Shown here in pieces: positions 6,220 through 31,495 of a stretch of DNA of 31,495 nucleotides (positions are counted from its first letter, which is position 1; every line of letters starts with the position of its first letter). This stretch comes from a virus, in the IMG/VR virus record IMGVR_UViG_3300030519_000035, positions 1 to 31,495 of that record; one strand, 5' to 3'. A model generated the notes under the pieces. The model did not search any database. It saw only the letters and a program-made list of their open reading frames with translations, and was not told where the DNA came from. The position numbers were made by a program, and so were the translations under genes.

Positions 6220-7782
6220 ATGCCGATCGTTCAGCAGGGCAGCATCAACACCACGTCCCTTGTGGTCCCTGACCTCTACGTCCAGATCGTTCCGCCGCAG
6301 AGCCTGGTTCTGAACGGCGTTCCGACCAACGTTGTCGGGGTGGTCGGAACGGCAAGCTGGGGACCCATCGGCCAGCCTGTGATCGTCGCGACCATGGCCG
6401 ACTACGCGCAGAGCTTCGGGCCGGTCGTGGCTCGCAAATACGACATGGGAACACAGGTCGCAACCGCCGTGCAGCAAGGGGCGCAGGATTTTCGCTGCGT
6501 CCGCGTGACCGATGGCACGGACACTGCAGCGCAGACCGTGTTTCCCGGCACGACCGTCACCTTCACCGCACTGTACACCGGTTCCCTCGGCAACCAGGTG
6601 ACGCTGTCGCTCGCCATCGGTTCGAAGGCGAACACCTGGCGGCTCACCATCTCGCTGCCGGGGCTGCAGCCGGAGGTGTACGACAATATCGGCGGCACCG
6701 GCGCGACGTTCTGGATTGCGCTTGCGGCCGCGGTCAACCAAGGCCAGGGGCCGCAACGCGGTCCCTCGCAGCTCGTGGCGGCAAGCGCCGGCGGGGCGAC
6801 GGCAACCCCGGGCGCATGCTCGTTTTCCCTCGGCGGCGGCAATGCCGGCAGCGATGGGGCAAACGGGGCGACCGTCACGCTTCTGGTGGGCAACGACGTG
6901 CTGCCGCGGACGGGCATGTACGCGCTGCGTGGCCAGGGATGCGGCATCGCGCTGCTGGCCGACGCGGACGATCCGCAACACTGGACGGACCAGGCAGGTT
7001 TCGGGTTGCAGGAGGGTATCTACGTGATCCTGACTGGCCCGGCCGGTGACACAATACAGAACGCCGTCGCCGTGAAGCAGCAGGCCGGCCTGGATAGTTA
7101 CGCCGCGAAGCTGATGTTCGGCGACTGGCTATGGTGGTCGGACCAGGTCAATGCGACAGTACGACTGGTTTCGCCGCAGGGCTTTGCGGCGGGCAGGCTG
7201 GCGAATCTGTCTCCCGAGCAATCCAGCCTCAACAAGCCGTTGTATGGCATTATCGGCAGCCAAAAGTCCGGAACGCCCGGATCGGGGCAGAACAATTCCT
7301 ATTCCAGCGCCGACCTTGCGGTACTGCTCGGGGTCGGCATCGACGTGATCGCGAACCCCCAGCCGGGCGGATATTACTGGGGTGTCCGCGGGGGGCACAA
7401 CTCCTCCTCGGACGCGGCGACAAACGGCGACAACTACACAAGGCTGACGAACTACATTGCCGCGACATTGGCCGCCGGCATGGGAAGCTACGTTGGCCAG
7501 GTCATCAACGCCGATCTGTTCCGCCAGATCCGGGCCACGCAGATGGCGTTCCTGCAGAACATGCTGTCACAAGGGCTGCTGGGCAGCACGGACGGGACCC
7601 TGCCGTTCAACGTCATCTGCGATATCTCCAACAACCCATCGAGCCGCACCGGACTGGGCTACGTCCAGTCCGACGCCCAGGTCCAGTATCAGTCGATCAA
7701 CGAAAAATTCATCGTCAATATCGAGGGCGGCCAGACCGTCCAGGTATCCCGCCAGACGCTGCCCGGCGGCCAGACTTCTTAA
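6220..7782 (+). CDS. Tail sheath protein
   Basis: A 520-residue protein. It would assemble around the tail tube and contract to drive the tube into the host cell. Sheath-like features are an N-terminal VVGTASWGPIGQPVIVATMADYAQSFG segment (the strand-turn-strand start common to sheath domains), a variable outward domain in the middle (residues of about 100-210, Gly/Thr/Ser-rich), and a conserved-type C-terminal region containing NYTRLTNYIAATLA, FRQIRATQMAFLQNML and IVNIEGGQTVQVSR, where the helix and final strand link neighbouring subunits. It is followed 12 bases later by the tube gene, the standard order. This gene establishes that the phage has a contractile tail. Confidence 0.93.
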   Translation: MPIVQQGSINTTSLVVPDLYVQIVPPQSLVLNGVPTNVVGVVGTASWGPIGQPVIVATMADYAQSFGPVVARKYDMGTQVATAVQQGAQDFRCVRVTDGTDTAAQTVFPGTTVTFTALYTGSLGNQVTLSLAIGSKANTWRLTISLPGLQPEVYDNIGGTGATFWIALAAAVNQGQGPQRGPSQLVAASAGGATATPGACSFSLGGGNAGSDGANGATVTLLVGNDVLPRTGMYALRGQGCGIALLADADDPQHWTDQAGFGLQEGIYVILTGPAGDTIQNAVAVKQQAGLDSYAAKLMFGDWLWWSDQVNATVRLVSPQGFAAGRLANLSPEQSSLNKPLYGIIGSQKSGTPGSGQNNSYSSADLAVLLGVGIDVIANPQPGGYYWGVRGGHNSSSDAATNGDNYTRLTNYIAATLAAGMGSYVGQVINADLFRQIRATQMAFLQNMLSQGLLGSTDGTLPFNVICDISNNPSSRTGLGYVQSDAQVQYQSINEKFIVNIEGGQTVQVSRQTLPGGQTS

Positions 7783-7794
7783 GGAGCAATCGGC

Positions 7795-8223
7795 ATGTCA
7801 CTCACGACGTTTTCCGTCGGCCGCGACACGCAGTTGGTCGTCATGGGGCCTTCCGGCCGTGTCGATCTGAACCATGTCACGGGATTCGAGAGCCGCCAGC
7901 TCACGCATTCGATTCGCGTGAGCCGGCTCGACGGCACGCAGGTCGGCACCGAGCTGCCCCGAGGATGGGAGGGCAGCTTCGAGATCGAGCGCGGCAATTC
8001 CGCCGCGGACGACTTCATCGCCAGCATGGAGCAGCAGTTCTTCACTGGCGGGCCGGCGACACCGGGCACGATGTACCAATACGTCAGCGAGACCGACGGC
8101 TCGACGTCCACCTACCAGTACGATAACGTCACGTTCCGGCTGGCCAGCGCCGGACTTTGGAAAGGCGACGCCAGCGTCAAGCAGAAGCTGGAGTACTTCG
8201 CGACCAGGCGGCGCCGCGTATGA
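7795..8223 (+). CDS. Tail tube protein
   Basis: A 142-residue protein directly after the sheath gene, the place and size of tail tube proteins of contractile phages. It shows a beta-rich pattern (DTQLVVMGPSGRVDLNHVTGFESRQ, SIRVSRLDGTQ, GWEGSFEIERGN) and a closing strand SVKQKLEYFATRRRRV, consistent with the two-sheet fold that stacks as hexameric rings. The tube is the channel for DNA and carries the spike at its tip. The stop codon overlaps the next start by 4 bases (ATGA at 8220-8223), so the tube and chaperone genes are probably translated together. Confidence 0.88.
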   Translation: MSLTTFSVGRDTQLVVMGPSGRVDLNHVTGFESRQLTHSIRVSRLDGTQVGTELPRGWEGSFEIERGNSAADDFIASMEQQFFTGGPATPGTMYQYVSETDGSTSTYQYDNVTFRLASAGLWKGDASVKQKLEYFATRRRRV

Positions 8224-8588
8224 TCACTTTGTCGGAGATCGCGCTGACATCCGCGGCTGACGGCCTGACGCTGACCACGAGCGATGGACGCAGGCTGACG
8301 TTGCGCCGCCTGACCGCGCTCGACAAGCTGCGCCTGTTCAAGGCGGCTGGACCTGCGTTGTCCCAGAACCAGCCCTGGCTGGGGATGGCGATGTTGGCAA
8401 GTTCCGTGACGGCTATAGACGACGTGCCGATCCCGCCGCCAACGAACGAGCCGCAGATCGAGGCGATGGTCGCCCGGCTCGGCGACAGCGGGATTACCGC
8501 GGTCGCCGAAGCCTTCCAGCATTTGGGCGAGGCCGCCGGCGCGGCCCTCGTTGTCAACGCGGGAAACTCGCGCGGCACCCCGACCTGA
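8220..8588 (+). CDS. Tail assembly chaperone, short form (G-type)
   Basis: A 122-residue zero-frame product overlapping the tube stop by 4 bases. It begins ITLSEIALTSAADGLTLTTSDGRRLTLRRLTALDKLRLF, typical of short tail assembly chaperones that coat the tape measure protein before tube polymerisation. The zero-frame C-terminus after codon 116 is only a few residues (SRGTPT), while the -1 frame continues with a well-formed domain. That is the G/GT layout seen in lambda and in many contractile phages. A frameshift signal lies at 8561-8567. The short form should be made in large excess over the frameshifted form. Confidence 0.88.
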   Translation: MITLSEIALTSAADGLTLTTSDGRRLTLRRLTALDKLRLFKAAGPALSQNQPWLGMAMLASSVTAIDDVPIPPPTNEPQIEAMVARLGDSGITAVAEAFQHLGEAAGAALVVNAGNSRGTPT

Positions 8589-8740
8589 TCGACTGTCTGT
8601 ATCTGGTCAGGAACGGGGTGCCGTTCGACATCGCCTTCAGTCTTCCCGGGGACGAACGCCTCGCCTTCGTGGTGGTGATGGGCACCCTCGATGGCCGCAC
8701 GTTCGACTGGGACCGCCTCGCATGGAAGGATGATCCGTGA
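8220..8740 (+). CDS. Tail assembly chaperone, -1 frameshift fusion (GT-type)
   Basis: Predicted product of -1 programmed frameshifting: codons 8220-8567 in frame, then reading resumes at 8567 in the -1 frame to the TGA at 8738-8740, giving about 116 + 57 = 173 residues. The -1 frame segment is LARHPDLIDCLYLVRNGVPF, continued by AFSLPGDERLAFVVVMGTLDG and FDWDRLAWKDD. This is a coherent domain with the kind of sequence usually encoded after the slip site (the T part). It has no good start codon of its own near its beginning. The stop overlaps the next gene's GTG by 3 bases. T-type domains are thought to recruit tube subunits to the tape measure-chaperone complex. Confidence 0.85.
8561..8567 (+). 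promoter_or_regulatory. -1 ribosomal slippery heptamer GGGAAAC
   Basis: The heptamer G GGA AAC is in the correct phase of the G-type gene: zero-frame codons are GGA (8562-8564) and AAC (8565-8567). It therefore matches X XXY YYZ exactly and allows re-pairing on GGG and AAA. Lambda uses the closely related GGGAAAG at the same point of the same type of gene. The reading frame after the slip is open for 57 codons. Confidence 0.88.
8573..8623 (+). promoter_or_regulatory. Stem-loop downstream of slippery site (frameshift stimulator)
   Basis: CGGCACCCCG (8573-8582) is perfectly complementary to CGGGGTGCCG (8614-8623), a 10-bp GC-rich stem. Inside it, CCTGATC (8584-8590) pairs with GGTCAGG (8605-8611) with one G-U pair, leaving a 14-base loop (8591-8604). 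The stem begins 5 bases after the heptamer, the spacing known to favour -1 frameshifting. The zero-frame stop codon TGA (8586-8588) lies within the inner stem. Confidence 0.8.
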
Positions 8741-9063
8741 TCTCGATATCCGGTTTGCGAGACCTCACGCAACGCCTTTCCGCCCTGGATCTCGTCGGCG
8801 CGCGAGCCGGCGCGCTGGCAGAGGCCGCCGAAGTCATCGAACAGTCGCTGACGTCAGAAGGGACGGGCAAACACTCGCTTGGCATAACGATCGAAGCAGA
8901 CCGTGCTGTGATCGGGACCGCCGACCCGGCCGCTGCGGACGTGGAGTTGGGGTCTCGGGCCACGCTCCCTCGTCCGTTCTGGAGCCAGGCGGCACAGGTC
9001 GCCTGTGACGATGCCGCGGACATTGTGGCTGCGCACTTCGTCGCTGCACTGAGAGGCGAATGA
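8737..9063 (+). CDS. Small minor tail protein, unknown function
   Basis: A 108-residue protein starting with GTG that overlaps the end of the frameshifted chaperone. It opens with SISGLRDLTQRLSALDLVGARAGALAEAAEVIEQ, an amphipathic helical start, and contains SRATLPRPFWSQAAQV followed by DDAADIVAAHFVAAL. The overall plan (helix, small beta part with a loop, closing helix) resembles small HK97 gp10-like or gpS-like tail completion proteins, but the similarity is weak by eye. It sits between the chaperone and the tape-measure position, so it probably acts in tail assembly. Confidence 0.65.
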   Translation: MISISGLRDLTQRLSALDLVGARAGALAEAAEVIEQSLTSEGTGKHSLGITIEADRAVIGTADPAAADVELGSRATLPRPFWSQAAQVACDDAADIVAAHFVAALRGE

Positions 9064-9064
9064 C

Positions 9065-10096
9065 ATGATCGACGCCTACACCATCGGCATTACGCTCGCA
9101 CTTGATGACGGTGTCTCGTCCGGCATCGCGGCCATCCGCAAGGAGCTGATGCTGCTGGATGGCGCCGTCAAGAGTGCCGCCAGCGCCATGTCCGGCATGC
9201 ATGCCCTCGCCGGGGTCGCTGACTGGACAAGGTTCGGCGACATCCCGGCCAAGAGTCTTGCCCGCCCGGTTTCAACAGCCGTGCCTGTCGCGGCCGACAC
9301 GCTTCAGGCGTTAGAGCCGGCGGTTCCGCCAGTCCAGTCATCTTCAGCCGCACCGACGCCGGAATGGCCAGCGGATTGTGTGCGCCCGTTCACCCCGATG
9401 TCGATGCCCGCGACCGCCGAGGTCACTGTCCGGCCTGCACCAGTGTTCGTCGGGATCACGCCTCCGCCCGCCACCGTTCGGCCTGACGCACCGCCGTCAC
9501 GCAAGACCACGCAAGTGGTTTCGGCACTGCCTGTGGCTGCGGCGCCGACGGTGCCTCCGCCACCGCCGCGGGCAGAAGCGCCGTCCGCTCCGGCAGCCGT
9601 TCTGCCAGAAAAGTTGGCCGTACTGGCGAGTCGCATACTGCCCGAGCGCCTTGCAGGCACGAGCGTCCCGCCACTGCAGGCACCAGCCACGACAGCGCCG
9701 CAACGCGCTCCGCTACCGCCGCGGCCGGAGTTGCCTTTGGCCAGCATTCCAACCGTGTACCCTCAAGATCCACCGAGCGCGCCGTTCGCTGTTATCCAAA
9801 CATCCGCTGCGATCGAGACGGGGATAGCAGCTCAGCAAGCCGCACCGTCGCCCACGCCAAAGTCCCGGGCAGCGCCGCCGCAGGACGCTCAGGATGACCG
9901 TCGTTCAGTCGAGCCGCCGCCCCTTCCCGATGCCGCACCACAGCTCGCCCAAGCCGACCTGTACATTGATGGCGCCGTGCTCGGACGCTGGGTGACCCGC
10001 CATCTTGAGCGGCAGTTGATCCGGCCGCCGTCCGGCATCGCGGCTGTCGATCCGCGGCTCACCCCTGGCTGGGCGGGGCCGGCGACGGGATTCTGA
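9065..10096 (+). CDS. Proline-rich protein in the tape-measure position (candidate short tape measure)
   Basis: A 343-residue protein immediately after the chaperone genes, where the tape measure gene always lies in such phages. Residues 1-45 (DAYTIGITLALDDGVSSGIAAIRKELMLLD and so on) resemble the N-terminus of tape measure proteins. The middle, residues of about 65-295, is very rich in Pro, Ala, Ser and Thr, with runs such as TVPPPPPRAEAPSAPAAV, and is probably disordered. The C-terminus, DLYIDGAVLGRWVTRHLERQL then PPSGIAAVDPRLTPGWAGP, looks folded and conserved. No hydrophobic transmembrane stretch or long coiled coil is seen, unlike most tape measures. It is either a short divergent tape measure or a gene that has lost its helical core. 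The coding frame is intact. Confidence 0.7.
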   Translation: MIDAYTIGITLALDDGVSSGIAAIRKELMLLDGAVKSAASAMSGMHALAGVADWTRFGDIPAKSLARPVSTAVPVAADTLQALEPAVPPVQSSSAAPTPEWPADCVRPFTPMSMPATAEVTVRPAPVFVGITPPPATVRPDAPPSRKTTQVVSALPVAAAPTVPPPPPRAEAPSAPAAVLPEKLAVLASRILPERLAGTSVPPLQAPATTAPQRAPLPPRPELPLASIPTVYPQDPPSAPFAVIQTSAAIETGIAAQQAAPSPTPKSRAAPPQDAQDDRRSVEPPPLPDAAPQLAQADLYIDGAVLGRWVTRHLERQLIRPPSGIAAVDPRLTPGWAGPATGF

Positions 10097-27311: not shown

Positions 27312-30300
27312 CTAGCGAAAATCGCGCGAGCGCGGAACGACCCGCTCGGCGCGCGGGTGGCGCGGTGCGCGGGGACGCGGCATCTCATCGGCTGGCGTGG
27401 CAATCGTCAGGACGGGTGCGTCCTCGATGATGCCGGCCATCGCGGCGCTGCGATCCTCAAGCTGCTCGGCGATGACGTGCACAATCCCTTCCGGACTGCG
27501 CTGCAGCTTGCCCCGCACCAGCAACAACGAACTGCCGAGGATCGCACGGCGGAACTGCTCCAGCATGCTGGACCAGACGACGATGTTGGCGATGCCGGTC
27601 TCGTCCTCGATGGTGCAGAACACGACGTTGCCGTTGCCCGGGCGCTGGCGCACCAGCACCACACCGGCAACGGCAACCGCGGTGCCGTCGCGCCCCGCCG
27701 TCGCTTCGGCGCAGCTCAGCACGCCTTCGCGGGAAAACTGCGCGCGCAGGAAGCGCATCGGGTGCGCCTTCAGCGACAGGCCGGCGGTCTGGTAATCGGC
27801 GATGACGTGCTCGCCCTGCGTCATCAACGGCAGCGACGCGGGTTTTACCGCAACCGGCTGGTGGGCAAACAAGGGCAGTGCAGCCGACAGGCCACGCACT
27901 TGCCAGAGCGCCTCCCGCCGATCCAGCCCCAGGCTGCGCATCGCATCGGCGTCCGCCAAGGCAACCAGCGCCGCATGCGGCAACCCCCAGCGCGCCAGAT
28001 CGGCAAAACTACCAGCACGATCCTTGACCAAAAGGTCCGCCCAGTCCTGGCGGAAGCCCGATATCAGACGGAACCCGAGCCGCAGCGTCCCCCCGTCCTC
28101 CATCGTGCAATCCCACAAGCTCGCGCAAACGTCGATGCCGCGCACGGTTACGCCATGGTCCCGCGCGTCCCGCACGATCTGCGCCGGCGCGTAGAACCCC
28201 ATCGGCTGCGAATTGAGCAGCGCGCAGGCGAACGCCGCCGGATGGTGGCACTTCAGCCAGGCCGAGATATAGACCAGCAGAGCAAAACTGGCAGCGTGGC
28301 TTTCCGGGAAGCCATACGTGCCAAAACCCTCGATCTGGCGGAAGCAGCGTTCGGCGAAGTCGCGCTCGTAGCCGCGCGCCACCATGCCCTCCACCATCTT
28401 GGCGAAGAAGCGATGGATGGTGCCGACGTGGCGAAACGTCGCCATGGCGCGGCGGAGCTGGTTGGCTTCCTCGGGCGTGAACCGCGCGGCCTCGATGGCG
28501 ATCCGCATCGCCTGCTCCTGGAACAGCGGCACGCCGAGCGTCTTGCCGAGCACGCGTTCCAGCTCATCGGGCGGCCCGTGCTCCGGTGACGGCGACGGGA
28601 GAAAGACCTCTTCCAGACCTTGGCGCCGGCGCAGATAGGGATGCACCATGTCGCCCTGGATCGGACCGGGGCGCACGATCGCCACCTCGATCACCAGGTC
28701 GTAGAATTCGCGCGGCTGCATCCGCGGCAGCATGTTGATCTGCGCACGCGATTCCACCTGGAACACGCCGATCGAATCGCCGCGCGATAACATCGTGTAG
28801 ACGACGGGATCGTCCTGCGGGATCTCGGCCAGATCGGTGACGCCGAGCAGCGCAAACGCCTTGCGCACGCAGGTCAGCATCCCGAGCGCCAGCACATCGA
28901 CCTTCATCAGGCCGAGCGTGTCGATGTCGTCCTTGTCCCATTCGATGAAGCTGCGCTCGTCCATGGCGGCGTTGCCGATCGGCACGGTCTCGTCCAGCCG
29001 GCCGCGCGTCAGCACGAAGCCGCCGACATGCTGCGACAGGTGACGCGGAAAGCCGACCAGGTCGCGGGCCAGACCGACCGTGCGGCGGATCACGGGGCTT
29101 GCGGGGTCCAGCCCGATTTCCACCAGGCTGTCGTCCGACCACAGTTCGTCTCCCGCGTGCCAGGATTGTGCGGCAAGCGCCGCCGTTACGTCCTCGGTCA
29201 GGCCAAGCGCCTTGCCCACTTCGCGGATGGCGCTTTTCGGCCGGTAGTGGATCACGGTGGCGGCAATGGCGGCGCGGTGGCGGCCGTAGCGGCGATAGAT
29301 GTACTGGATGACCTCCTCGCGCCGTTCGTGTTCGAAATCGACATCGATGTCGGGTGGCTCGCGCCGCTCGGCGGAGATGAACCGTTCGAACAGCAGGTTG
29401 ATCTTGGTCGGATCGACCGCCGTGACGCCGAGGCAGTAGCACACAGCGGAATTTGCCGCCGACCCACGTCCCTGGCACAGGATTTCCTGGCTGCGGGCAA
29501 AGCGCACGATGTCGTGCACCGTCAGGAAATAGCGCGCGTAGCCGAACTGGCCGATCAGGCGCAGCTCCTTGTCCAGCGTCCCGCGCACAGCGGCTGGGAT
29601 GCCGGCGGGATAGCGCGCGGCGGCACCCTCCCATGTCAGGTTGGCCAGGTGCTCGTCAGGGGTCAGGCCGGGCGGGACCGGCTCGTCCGGGTATTCGTAG
29701 GCAATCTCGTCCAGCGAAAACCCGCAGCGCGCGACGATCTCCTGCGTGCGCGCAATGGCGGCGGGAAAATCCTTGAACAGCCGCGCCATCTCGGCGGGCG
29801 CCTTGAGGTGGCGCTCGGCGTTGGGCTGCAGCGCCAGCCCCGCTTCGTCGATGCGGCAGCCGAGCCGGATGCAGGTCATCACGTCCTGCAGCGATCTTCG
29901 CTCCGGGGCGTGGTACAGCACGTCGTTGGTGGCGACCATCGGCAACGGCAAGTCGGCCAGCGCGCGCAGCCGGCGAGCGTCGTCCGCACGGTAGCGGCGG
30001 CTGGCGGCGAGATAGGCGCGGTCGCGAAAATCCCCTGCAATGCGCTGGATGTTTGTGCGGAAGGCCGCATCCGGCCGAGCCGGCGGCACCGCCAGCACAA
30101 TCTGGCCCTCGCCATGCGCCAACAGATCGTCGTAGGCCAGGAAACAGCGGTTGGTGGCCTTCGCCGCCTCGCCGGTATCGCCATTCGGCACGCGCCGCTT
30201 GCCCAAGGTCAGCAGGCGCGTCAGGCGCCCCCAGGCGGCACGATCCTGCGGATAGCACAGCAAATCCGGCGTGCTGTCCTGGAAGACCAGTCGCGCGCCG

Positions 30301-30503
30301 AGCACCAGGCGGATGCCGACCTGACGCGCCGCATCGTGCATGCGCACCACGCCGGCCACGGTGTTGCGGTCGGTGATGCCGATCGCGCCCAGCCCAAGCA
30401 CTGCGGCCATGGCCGCCAGTTCCTCCGCCCGCGAGGCACCGCGCAGGAAGGAGAAGGCGCTGGCAACCTGAAGCTCTGCGTACGACGCTACGCTACGGGT
30501 CAT
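27312..30503 (-). CDS. dnaE2: Error-prone DNA polymerase DnaE2
   Basis: A 1063-residue C-family DNA polymerase that works with ImuA/ImuB in SOS-induced mutagenic translesion synthesis. Domains in order: a PHP domain at the N-terminus ([42 protein letters not shown]), the palm with PDIDVDF at residues 384-390 holding the catalytic Asp residues, the [10 protein letters not shown] and [18 protein letters not shown] segments, the fingers with [19 protein letters not shown] and [13 protein letters not shown]-like residues, and an OB domain near the end ([35 protein letters not shown]). It ends PRSRDFR, close to the usual SRDFH end of DnaE2, so the 3' end is intact. The start ATG overlaps the imuB stop (ATGA). 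A longer in-frame start would lie inside imuB and is not needed. Confidence 0.96.
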
Positions 30504-31495
30504 GCGAACAGGCCGTGCATGTACCAGCGCGGGGTCTCCCCGCTGCGGTAGAGACCGGCACGGAAGATCCAGAACCGCGCGCCCTCGGTGTCTTCCACGC
30601 GGTAATAGTCGCGAACCAGATCGGTCTCCGGCCGCGCCCCGCCCGGCTGGCGGCGCCACCACTCGGCGGCGATGCGCTCGGGACCGGCGGCGGCGCGCAC
30701 GCGATGCGGGGCACCGCGCCAGCGGAAGATGATCGGCGGGTCGTCCGGCACGGGTGCGGTGGCCTCGATCGGCTCCGGCCGGCGCAGCAGGCGGATCGGC
30801 CGCGGCAGCTTGGGATCGGCGACCCAGGCAGGCTGCGCAGCCAGCAGGGGCGGGACGCGCTGCACCGCGCGCTCCGGCACATGACTGGCGTGCGGGGCGG
30901 CACGCCAGACGCGCTCGGGGCCAAGCCGGTTGGCCAGGCGGTCCACCGTCGTCGCCAACTGCCCCACTCCGTCCGGCGCGGCCAGCGACGATAGCTGCGG
31001 CGCCGGCATCGGGACCACGTCATCGGCTTCCAGCGTCATCGCCTCTACGCCGAAGCCCGGATCGACCGTGTCGAGCTTTTCCCCCAGCAGACGTGCCAGA
31101 TAGGCAGCCTCGCGCACCGGCTGCGCTGTGCCGACGCCGATCTGCGGCACCACCCCGTCCACCCGAAAGAACCGTGCGGTAACGCGCTGCACGCCGCTGT
31201 GCTGGTCCGCGAGGCGCCGGCACAGGCGTTCGGCCAGCAGGGTCAGGGCGCGGGTCAGGTCCTCCGGCGTGCCGATCGGGTCGGCGAAGGCGACGCGCTC
31301 GAACCAGTCGATCGGCGTGCGCGGCCAGGCGATCGCCTCCGCTGCCGCGCCCAGCGCCTGGTCCAGCCGCAGCACGGGCGCCGAACCGAACCGCGCGGTG
31401 ATGTCGCCGCGCGGCAGGCGCAGCAGGTCGCGGACCTGGCGGATGCCGAGGCGGCGGAGCCCGGCCACGGTGCGGGGATCGAGCCGCAACAGGGC
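30500..31495 (-). CDS. imuB: ImuB, C-terminal part (5' end outside window)
   Basis: The frame is open through the window end, so only the last 331 codons are seen. ImuB is a catalytically inactive Y-family polymerase homologue that bridges DnaE2 and the beta clamp in the SOS mutasome. Visible parts are the helix-hairpin region [33 protein letters not shown], a little-finger-like part with [25 protein letters not shown], and the characteristic C-terminus [37 protein letters not shown]. The palm lies outside the window. The last base pairs overlap the dnaE2 start by 4 bases, so the two are one operon, normally with imuA upstream and a LexA box before it (not in this window). Confidence 0.95.

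Follow-up and report, generated by a model that had tools for sequence, protein, structure and literature searches.

A conserved slippery heptamer, an RNA hairpin and an overlapping −1 frame point to programmed frameshifting in a tail assembly chaperone gene of contractile-tailed phages

The IMG/VR virus record IMGVR_UViG_3300030519_000035 was analysed over positions 1 to 31,495, and this whole stretch of 31,495 nucleotides (nt) is referred to as the window. It contains a contractile-tail operon with a small gene, here called G, and sequence comparison makes it very probable that this gene uses −1 programmed ribosomal frameshifting to make two proteins, G and the longer G-T. Frameshifting at this gene is well known in tailed phages, and the signal found here is an unusually clear and strongly conserved one. 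A preliminary description of the window had predicted the frameshift, and the prediction is supported by conservation of the heptamer, the stem and the T domain, by covariation, and by frozen synonymous sites that are confined to the stem. The signal in the window consists of the following parts.

8220..8588, + strand: gene G, ATG to TGA, 122 amino acids (aa), predicted tail assembly chaperone, member of PHROG 20383
8561..8567, + strand: slippery heptamer GGGAAAC, read as G GGA AAC, with predicted re-pairing from GGA to GGG in the P site and from AAC to AAA in the A site
8568..8572, + strand: spacer TCGCG, 5 nt
8573..8582, + strand: 5' arm of the lower stem of 10 base pairs (bp), CGGCACCCCG
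8614..8623, + strand: 3' arm of the lower 10-bp stem, CGGGGTGCCG
8584..8590, + strand: 5' arm of the upper 7-bp helix, containing the zero-frame TGA
8605..8611, + strand: 3' arm of the upper helix
8586..8588, + strand: zero-frame stop TGA, end of G, six codons past the heptamer
8567..8740, + strand: T domain in the −1 frame, 57 residues and a stop, LARHPDLIDCLYLVRNGVPFDIAF...DWDRLAWKDDP

The heptamer stands in the right phase, as frame 0 reads GCG GGA AAC and conforms to X XXY YYZ. The 5-nt spacer, the perfect 10-bp stem and the second 7-bp helix with its 14-nt loop were all found where the preliminary description had placed them. One detail had to be corrected: the zero-frame stop does lie within the hairpin, in the upper helix and not inside the GC-rich 10-bp stem. 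From C8567 the −1 frame runs for 57 residues to the TGA at 8738-8740, and the product lengths given earlier agree with this (122 aa for G; G through N116 plus 57, hence 173 aa, for the putative G-T). Folding of 8568-8628 in RNAfold, suggested earlier as a check, reproduced exactly the claimed lower stem and extended it by a G-U pair between 8572 and 8624. The minimum was −37.6 kcal/mol (z-score −6.0; 0 of 200 dinucleotide shuffles as good), compared with a mean of −16.1 kcal/mol for synonymous recodings of the T frame (z = −4.65); the longer segment 8555-8640 gave −42.2 kcal/mol (z = −4.5). GGGAAAC alone is not rare, occurring four times in the window against 2.7 expected, and chance is excluded because heptamer, stem and T frame occur combined and conserved.

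Conservation was assessed in relatives found in two ways. A search of viral contigs with G alone as query, in which neither T nor the heptamer was used, gave 80 loci with 60 distinct junctions, and 79 of the 80 carried GGGAAAC in phase together with T in the −1 frame. In the exception (L052, around 1214) the slip site is CGGGAAC, with one base missing, and T lies in the other frame relative to G; this is a sequencing error or a broken signal. A search of genomes with T gave 42 loci, 41 of them genuine, and in 41 of the 42 an in-phase heptamer (38 G GGA AAC, 3 A AAA AAC) was followed by T in −1. These are prophages, nearly all in assemblies of Acetobacteraceae/Rhodospirillales, including Rhodopila and Acidisoma, and in five of these host assemblies an extended signature pattern occurred at most once per genome. 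The T alignment including distant families was too divergent for a collection search, and single distant T sequences were used as queries. The distant relatives comprise the Komagataeibacter phage phiKX2, plasmid records of Rhodovastum, Aquitalea, Pantoea and Paraburkholderia, and further viral contigs, with T identities of 32-42%. Their heptamers are A AAA AAC, A AAA AAT or A AAA AAA, and they keep the hairpin spacing, the frame and a nearby zero-frame stop, while the stem sequence has changed in most. Two matches, L122 (Herbiconiux) and L227, were spurious and were excluded. Over all 107 non-redundant junctions the heptamer is in phase in 106, as GGGAAAC in 85. Both heptamer and stem are therefore conserved over a large sequence divergence, a point that the preliminary description had proposed to check in related phages, and relatives lacking the −1 domain, which it had named as contrary evidence, were looked for and not encountered. 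The two bases preceding the heptamer (window 8559-8560) are mostly GC (G in 92 and C in 86 of 106 junctions), giving an alanine codon in the E site that is kept even with A6-7 heptamers; a role in the E site or in framing is possible.

The hairpin was examined in an alignment that is gap-free from heptamer to stem end over the 107 junctions, 34 of which were aligned as a diverse set (A2). The aligned sequences are related, so that the counts given here are not independent events; the conclusion that the hairpin is selected as RNA stands despite this kinship, because covariation between families and the codon contrast within the domain do not depend on it. In the lower stem 96.6% of alignment cells are paired over 106 junctions, against 35-47% when the arms are slid and 68.0% in a null of synonymous codons that keeps the protein (standard deviation 1.0, maximum 71% of 300). 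The upper helix is more weakly conserved, with 76% paired versus 63% in the synonymous null. In the 34 diverse sequences the named structure outscored all 500 shuffles in cells paired and in covariation (0.285 versus 0.162 shuffled, 0 of 500). The first base of T codon 4 pairs with the third base of codon 18 in 106 of 107 junctions (shuffled mean 81, maximum 90), in the combinations CAC:GTG (89), AAC:GTT (9) and GAC:GTC (4); the valine codon therefore shifts synonymously and tracks the amino-acid change across the stem. Among 95 GGGAAAC-type sequences synonymous diversity collapses only at the stem codons H4, P5, N16, G17 and V18, with R3 restricted to NGG. V18 is GTG in 95/95 (background 35%), G17 is GGG in 88/95 (background 19%) and R3 is CGG or AGG in 90/90 (background 37%). 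Directly outside the stem diversity returns to background, and V22, P19, G39 and G43 of T vary as the background does. Together, these comparisons demonstrate selection on the hairpin as RNA at the level of sequence. A scan for conserved helices around the junction returned the lower stem only (a 9-bp run, 97%), and a pseudoknot was rejected; the next conserved helices run over 4-5 bp and overlap the lower stem or each other. An all-pairs covariation scan was dominated by family-level composition and was not used except for the pair codon 4.1-codon 18.3 (99%). An upstream Shine-Dalgarno stimulator is not a conserved part of the signal, as only 34 of 106 junctions have a Shine-Dalgarno-like 4-mer in the 20 nt upstream.

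A stable structure kept as RNA at 5-9 nt 3' of a heptamer is what characterises a −1 frameshift stimulator. It could be argued that the frameshift is real and that the hairpin is kept for mRNA stability, as a terminator or for packaging, and not to stimulate slippage. Lambda-type sites, moreover, are not known to clearly require a structure. However, in every relative the 5' arm of the hairpin begins 5-6 nt past the heptamer, no U-run follows the stem, and it is the lower stem, nearest to ribosome entry, that is conserved while the apical part drifts. The usual spacer range is 5-9 nt (PMC8211752). We therefore regard such another role as improbable and stimulation of frameshifting as the better reading of the hairpin.

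The T frame itself evolves as a coding sequence. Over T codons 24-54 the differences between relatives by codon position are 377:283:1105 and thus concentrated on the third, and the −1 frame has 835 synonymous versus 565 nonsynonymous codon differences, compared with 132:1085 and 145:1037 in the other two frames. This pattern demonstrates protein-level selection on T in the −1 frame. The expectation that automatic annotation would miss T was borne out by plasmid records of Aquitalea (L125), Pantoea agglomerans/dispersa (L126) and Paraburkholderia (L127), in which it is unannotated, and the libraries miss it as well, T belonging to no PHROG or Pfam family. In phiKX2 (L123:4213-4410) it is annotated as a truncated separate open reading frame, BCZ76137.1, from an internal ATG at codon 7 of T. 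That record would agree with a T made separately, by internal initiation or by re-initiation after the G stop, with the hairpin controlling access to the start, and the overlap of the G stop with the T frame also resembles translational coupling. Yet in 85 of 106 junctions the T frame contains no ATG, GTG or TTG before codon 4 and up to the stem, and the first usable start in the window is a GTG at codon 18, within the 3' arm. Moreover, the conserved residues start at codon 1, right at the heptamer, whose in-phase position separate synthesis would not explain. Separate synthesis of T is thus very unlikely, and fusion to G by frameshifting accounts better for where its conservation begins. In a subgroup of four loci (L156, L157, L159 and L160) with GGGAAAC, no immediate stop and a stem of the GGGCACGCCG/CGGCGTGCCC type, the T frames are only about 41-45 codons long.

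The zero-frame stop is kept within 0-12 codons of the heptamer. In 77 of 106 junctions it (TGA, TAG or TAA) forms the first three bases of the spacer, directly after the heptamer, and 26 of the 29 junctions without this immediate stop have one six codons later, as in the window; only 38 of the 77 with an immediate stop also have the later one. Serine at T position 2 is encoded by AGC or AGT only, whereas Ser25 of the same domain is freely TCN, which is expected if CTG-AGY is kept to supply the TGA. In published slip sites of tail chaperones the distance to the following stop averages 26-36 nt (PMC10885494). The stop may act as part of the stimulator. We put forward, tentatively and as a possibility rather than a probability, that the family forms a distinct stop-adjacent class, with the stop right after a heptamer ending in AAC, a weaker type in bacteria, and at the base of a long hairpin. 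Slow termination would then act jointly with the hairpin to keep the ribosome at the slip site and determine the G:G-T ratio, and the clade of the window would be derived, its stop having moved six codons on.

G matches PHROG 20383, a family catalogued as of unknown function, with an expectation value (E) of 3e-19 for the window, and the six distant G proteins tested all fall in the same family (E 3e-13 to 4e-19). PHROG 508, tail assembly chaperone, matches weakly (E 0.0036). An AlphaFold2 model of G is confident (predicted local distance difference test score, pLDDT, 89.6). Its best match in the PDB is the HK97 tail assembly chaperone 2ob9 (E 0.27, probability 0.75, template modelling score about 0.5, 16% identity), a resemblance at fold level only, and its top named match in BFVD is Mu FS-gp41 (Foldseek E 0.007, probability 1.00), followed by several annotated tail assembly chaperones; no match to a tail assembly chaperone was below E 0.001. 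Sequence searches of Pfam and the PDB with G or T found nothing. Between the tube gene and the tape-measure gene lie two overlapping frames, the second in −1, which is the lambda-type G/G-T layout. Gene order, predicted fold and the weak PHROG 508 match back the identity of G as a tail chaperone, which had only been presumed before. This identity rests on gene order, G/T layout and fold together, since no useful profile or fold match was obtained for T.

We infer ribosomal slippage, its efficiency, its tandem character and the functions of G and T as follows. A ribosome whose P site is on GGA and whose A site is on AAC would meet the base of a very stable hairpin, and in a minority of passages both tRNAs would slip one base back onto GGG AAA. 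The slipped ribosomes would continue through the hairpin in the −1 frame and make G-T of 173 aa; the remaining ones would stay in frame and stop six codons on (window) or directly after the heptamer (most relatives), yielding G of about 116-122 aa. If the system works as in lambda, the tape measure protein would be coated by many G molecules and the tail tube protein would be recruited through T by few G-T molecules, both products would be absent from virions, and with such a division of labour the ratio would matter for tail assembly.

Several points weigh against this interpretation. Firstly, A AAA AAC is reported to be much less shift-prone in Escherichia coli than A AAA AAG (PMC5009743), which implies that AAC is not the best A-site codon for a bacterial site. 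Secondly, L052 lacks an intact heptamer, by one base. Lastly, for the chaperone assignment, the fold match to HK97 is weak by its E-value, no Pfam family was above the cut-off, and the T model, although as confident as that of G (AlphaFold2 pLDDT 89.6), had no convincing structural relative in the fold search (none at E ≤ 0.001). Slippage might also occur during transcription, on a homopolymer run, but in GGGAAAC, the heptamer of the window and of 85 of 107 junctions, no run exceeds three bases, and a conserved hairpin at a fixed spacing of 5-6 nt downstream fits the ribosome; we give this explanation hardly any weight. A −1 switch near a gene end, seen without comparison, can also be an error, G and T then being a single frame broken by faulty sequencing or by a recent inactivating mutation. 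Conservation refutes this and leaves it a negligible probability, as the break recurs at the same place in 106 of 107 non-redundant junctions, which come from many assemblies, isolates and plasmids.

The gpG/gpG-T pair of phage lambda is made by a −1 frameshift at G GGA AAG, in a small gene between the tail tube and tape measure genes. The present system is similar in having a small gene between tube and tape measure, a G GGA AA- heptamer and a T domain in the −1 frame. It differs in that the A-site codon is AAC and not AAG, a strong conserved hairpin lies 5 nt downstream, the stop follows 0-6 codons after the site, the tail is contractile and there is no detectable sequence similarity. Phage Mu uses a −2 shift. 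Its FS-gp41 (gp41/gp42) likewise belongs to a contractile-tailed phage and is a frameshift product, as predicted here, with a similar G fold; unlike in the gp41/gp42 family T lies in the −1 frame, and the Gp41_Mu profile was not matched above the cut-off (one of 67 members at E 0.042). The mechanism and the 30:1 ratio of lambda gpG/gpG-T have been described (PMC5009743). The E/E+E' genes of P2-like phages (T TTT TTG) also lie in a myophage tail operon, with a −1 shift towards the end of a small gene (PMC3931495), but their slip site is different and the proteins are unrelated. GGGAAAC and A AAA AAC both occur at the same gene in haloarchaeal viruses, for which no conserved hairpin is reported in the text consulted; these are archaeal siphoviruses, to which no relation was detected (PMC5009743). 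For the Burkholderia phages KL1 and AH2 a tail G-T frameshift was predicted with a possible stem-loop downstream, the stem coming from the folding of one sequence, without a covariation or synonymous-site test (PMC3483164). The present system stands out for its stop-adjacent layout, for having both an AAC A-site codon and a strong hairpin, and for the quality of the evidence from covariation.

With these results PHROG 20383 gains a putative function, and a hidden T domain comes to light that is usually left without annotation and that none of the profile libraries tested contains. Members of the family occur in phages of acetic-acid bacteria and their relatives, and in elements from Pantoea, Aquitalea and Paraburkholderia. 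They differ independently in slip site (GGGAAAC or A6-7), in the position of the stop (0 or 6 codons) and in the sequence of the stem, and this natural series could be used to learn how frameshift efficiency in bacteria depends on stop codons and hairpins. The synonymous covariation of CAC:GTG, AAC:GTT and GAC:GTC shows with unusual clarity an RNA element that lies within a coding sequence.

The operon in the window comprises the terminase end (56-667), portal, capsid, sheath, tube, G/T, tape measure and baseplate genes. The start codon of G overlaps the stop of the preceding gene as ATGA, and the stop of T (TGA, 8738-8740) shares bases with the GTG at 8737 that starts the next gene. The neighbours are as follows.

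6313-7782: sheath gene, PHROG 23
7795-8223: gene of tube size, adjoining G
8737-9063: small gene directly after T
9065-10096: short tape-measure-like gene

The tape-measure-like protein is very short (343 aa) with a proline-rich middle and weak PHROG support (E 0.005), and it would predict a very short contractile tail. The contractile-tail module is also carried by plasmids of Rhodovastum, Aquitalea, Pantoea and Paraburkholderia (L124-L127 and related records), which are phage-plasmids or contain prophages. At its end, on the − strand, the window has a DNA polymerase III alpha-like gene (DnaE2-like, 27312-30662) and an ImuB/Y-family-like gene (30500-31489). These are probably host SOS-mutagenesis genes flanking a prophage, and the viral record therefore appears to include host DNA.
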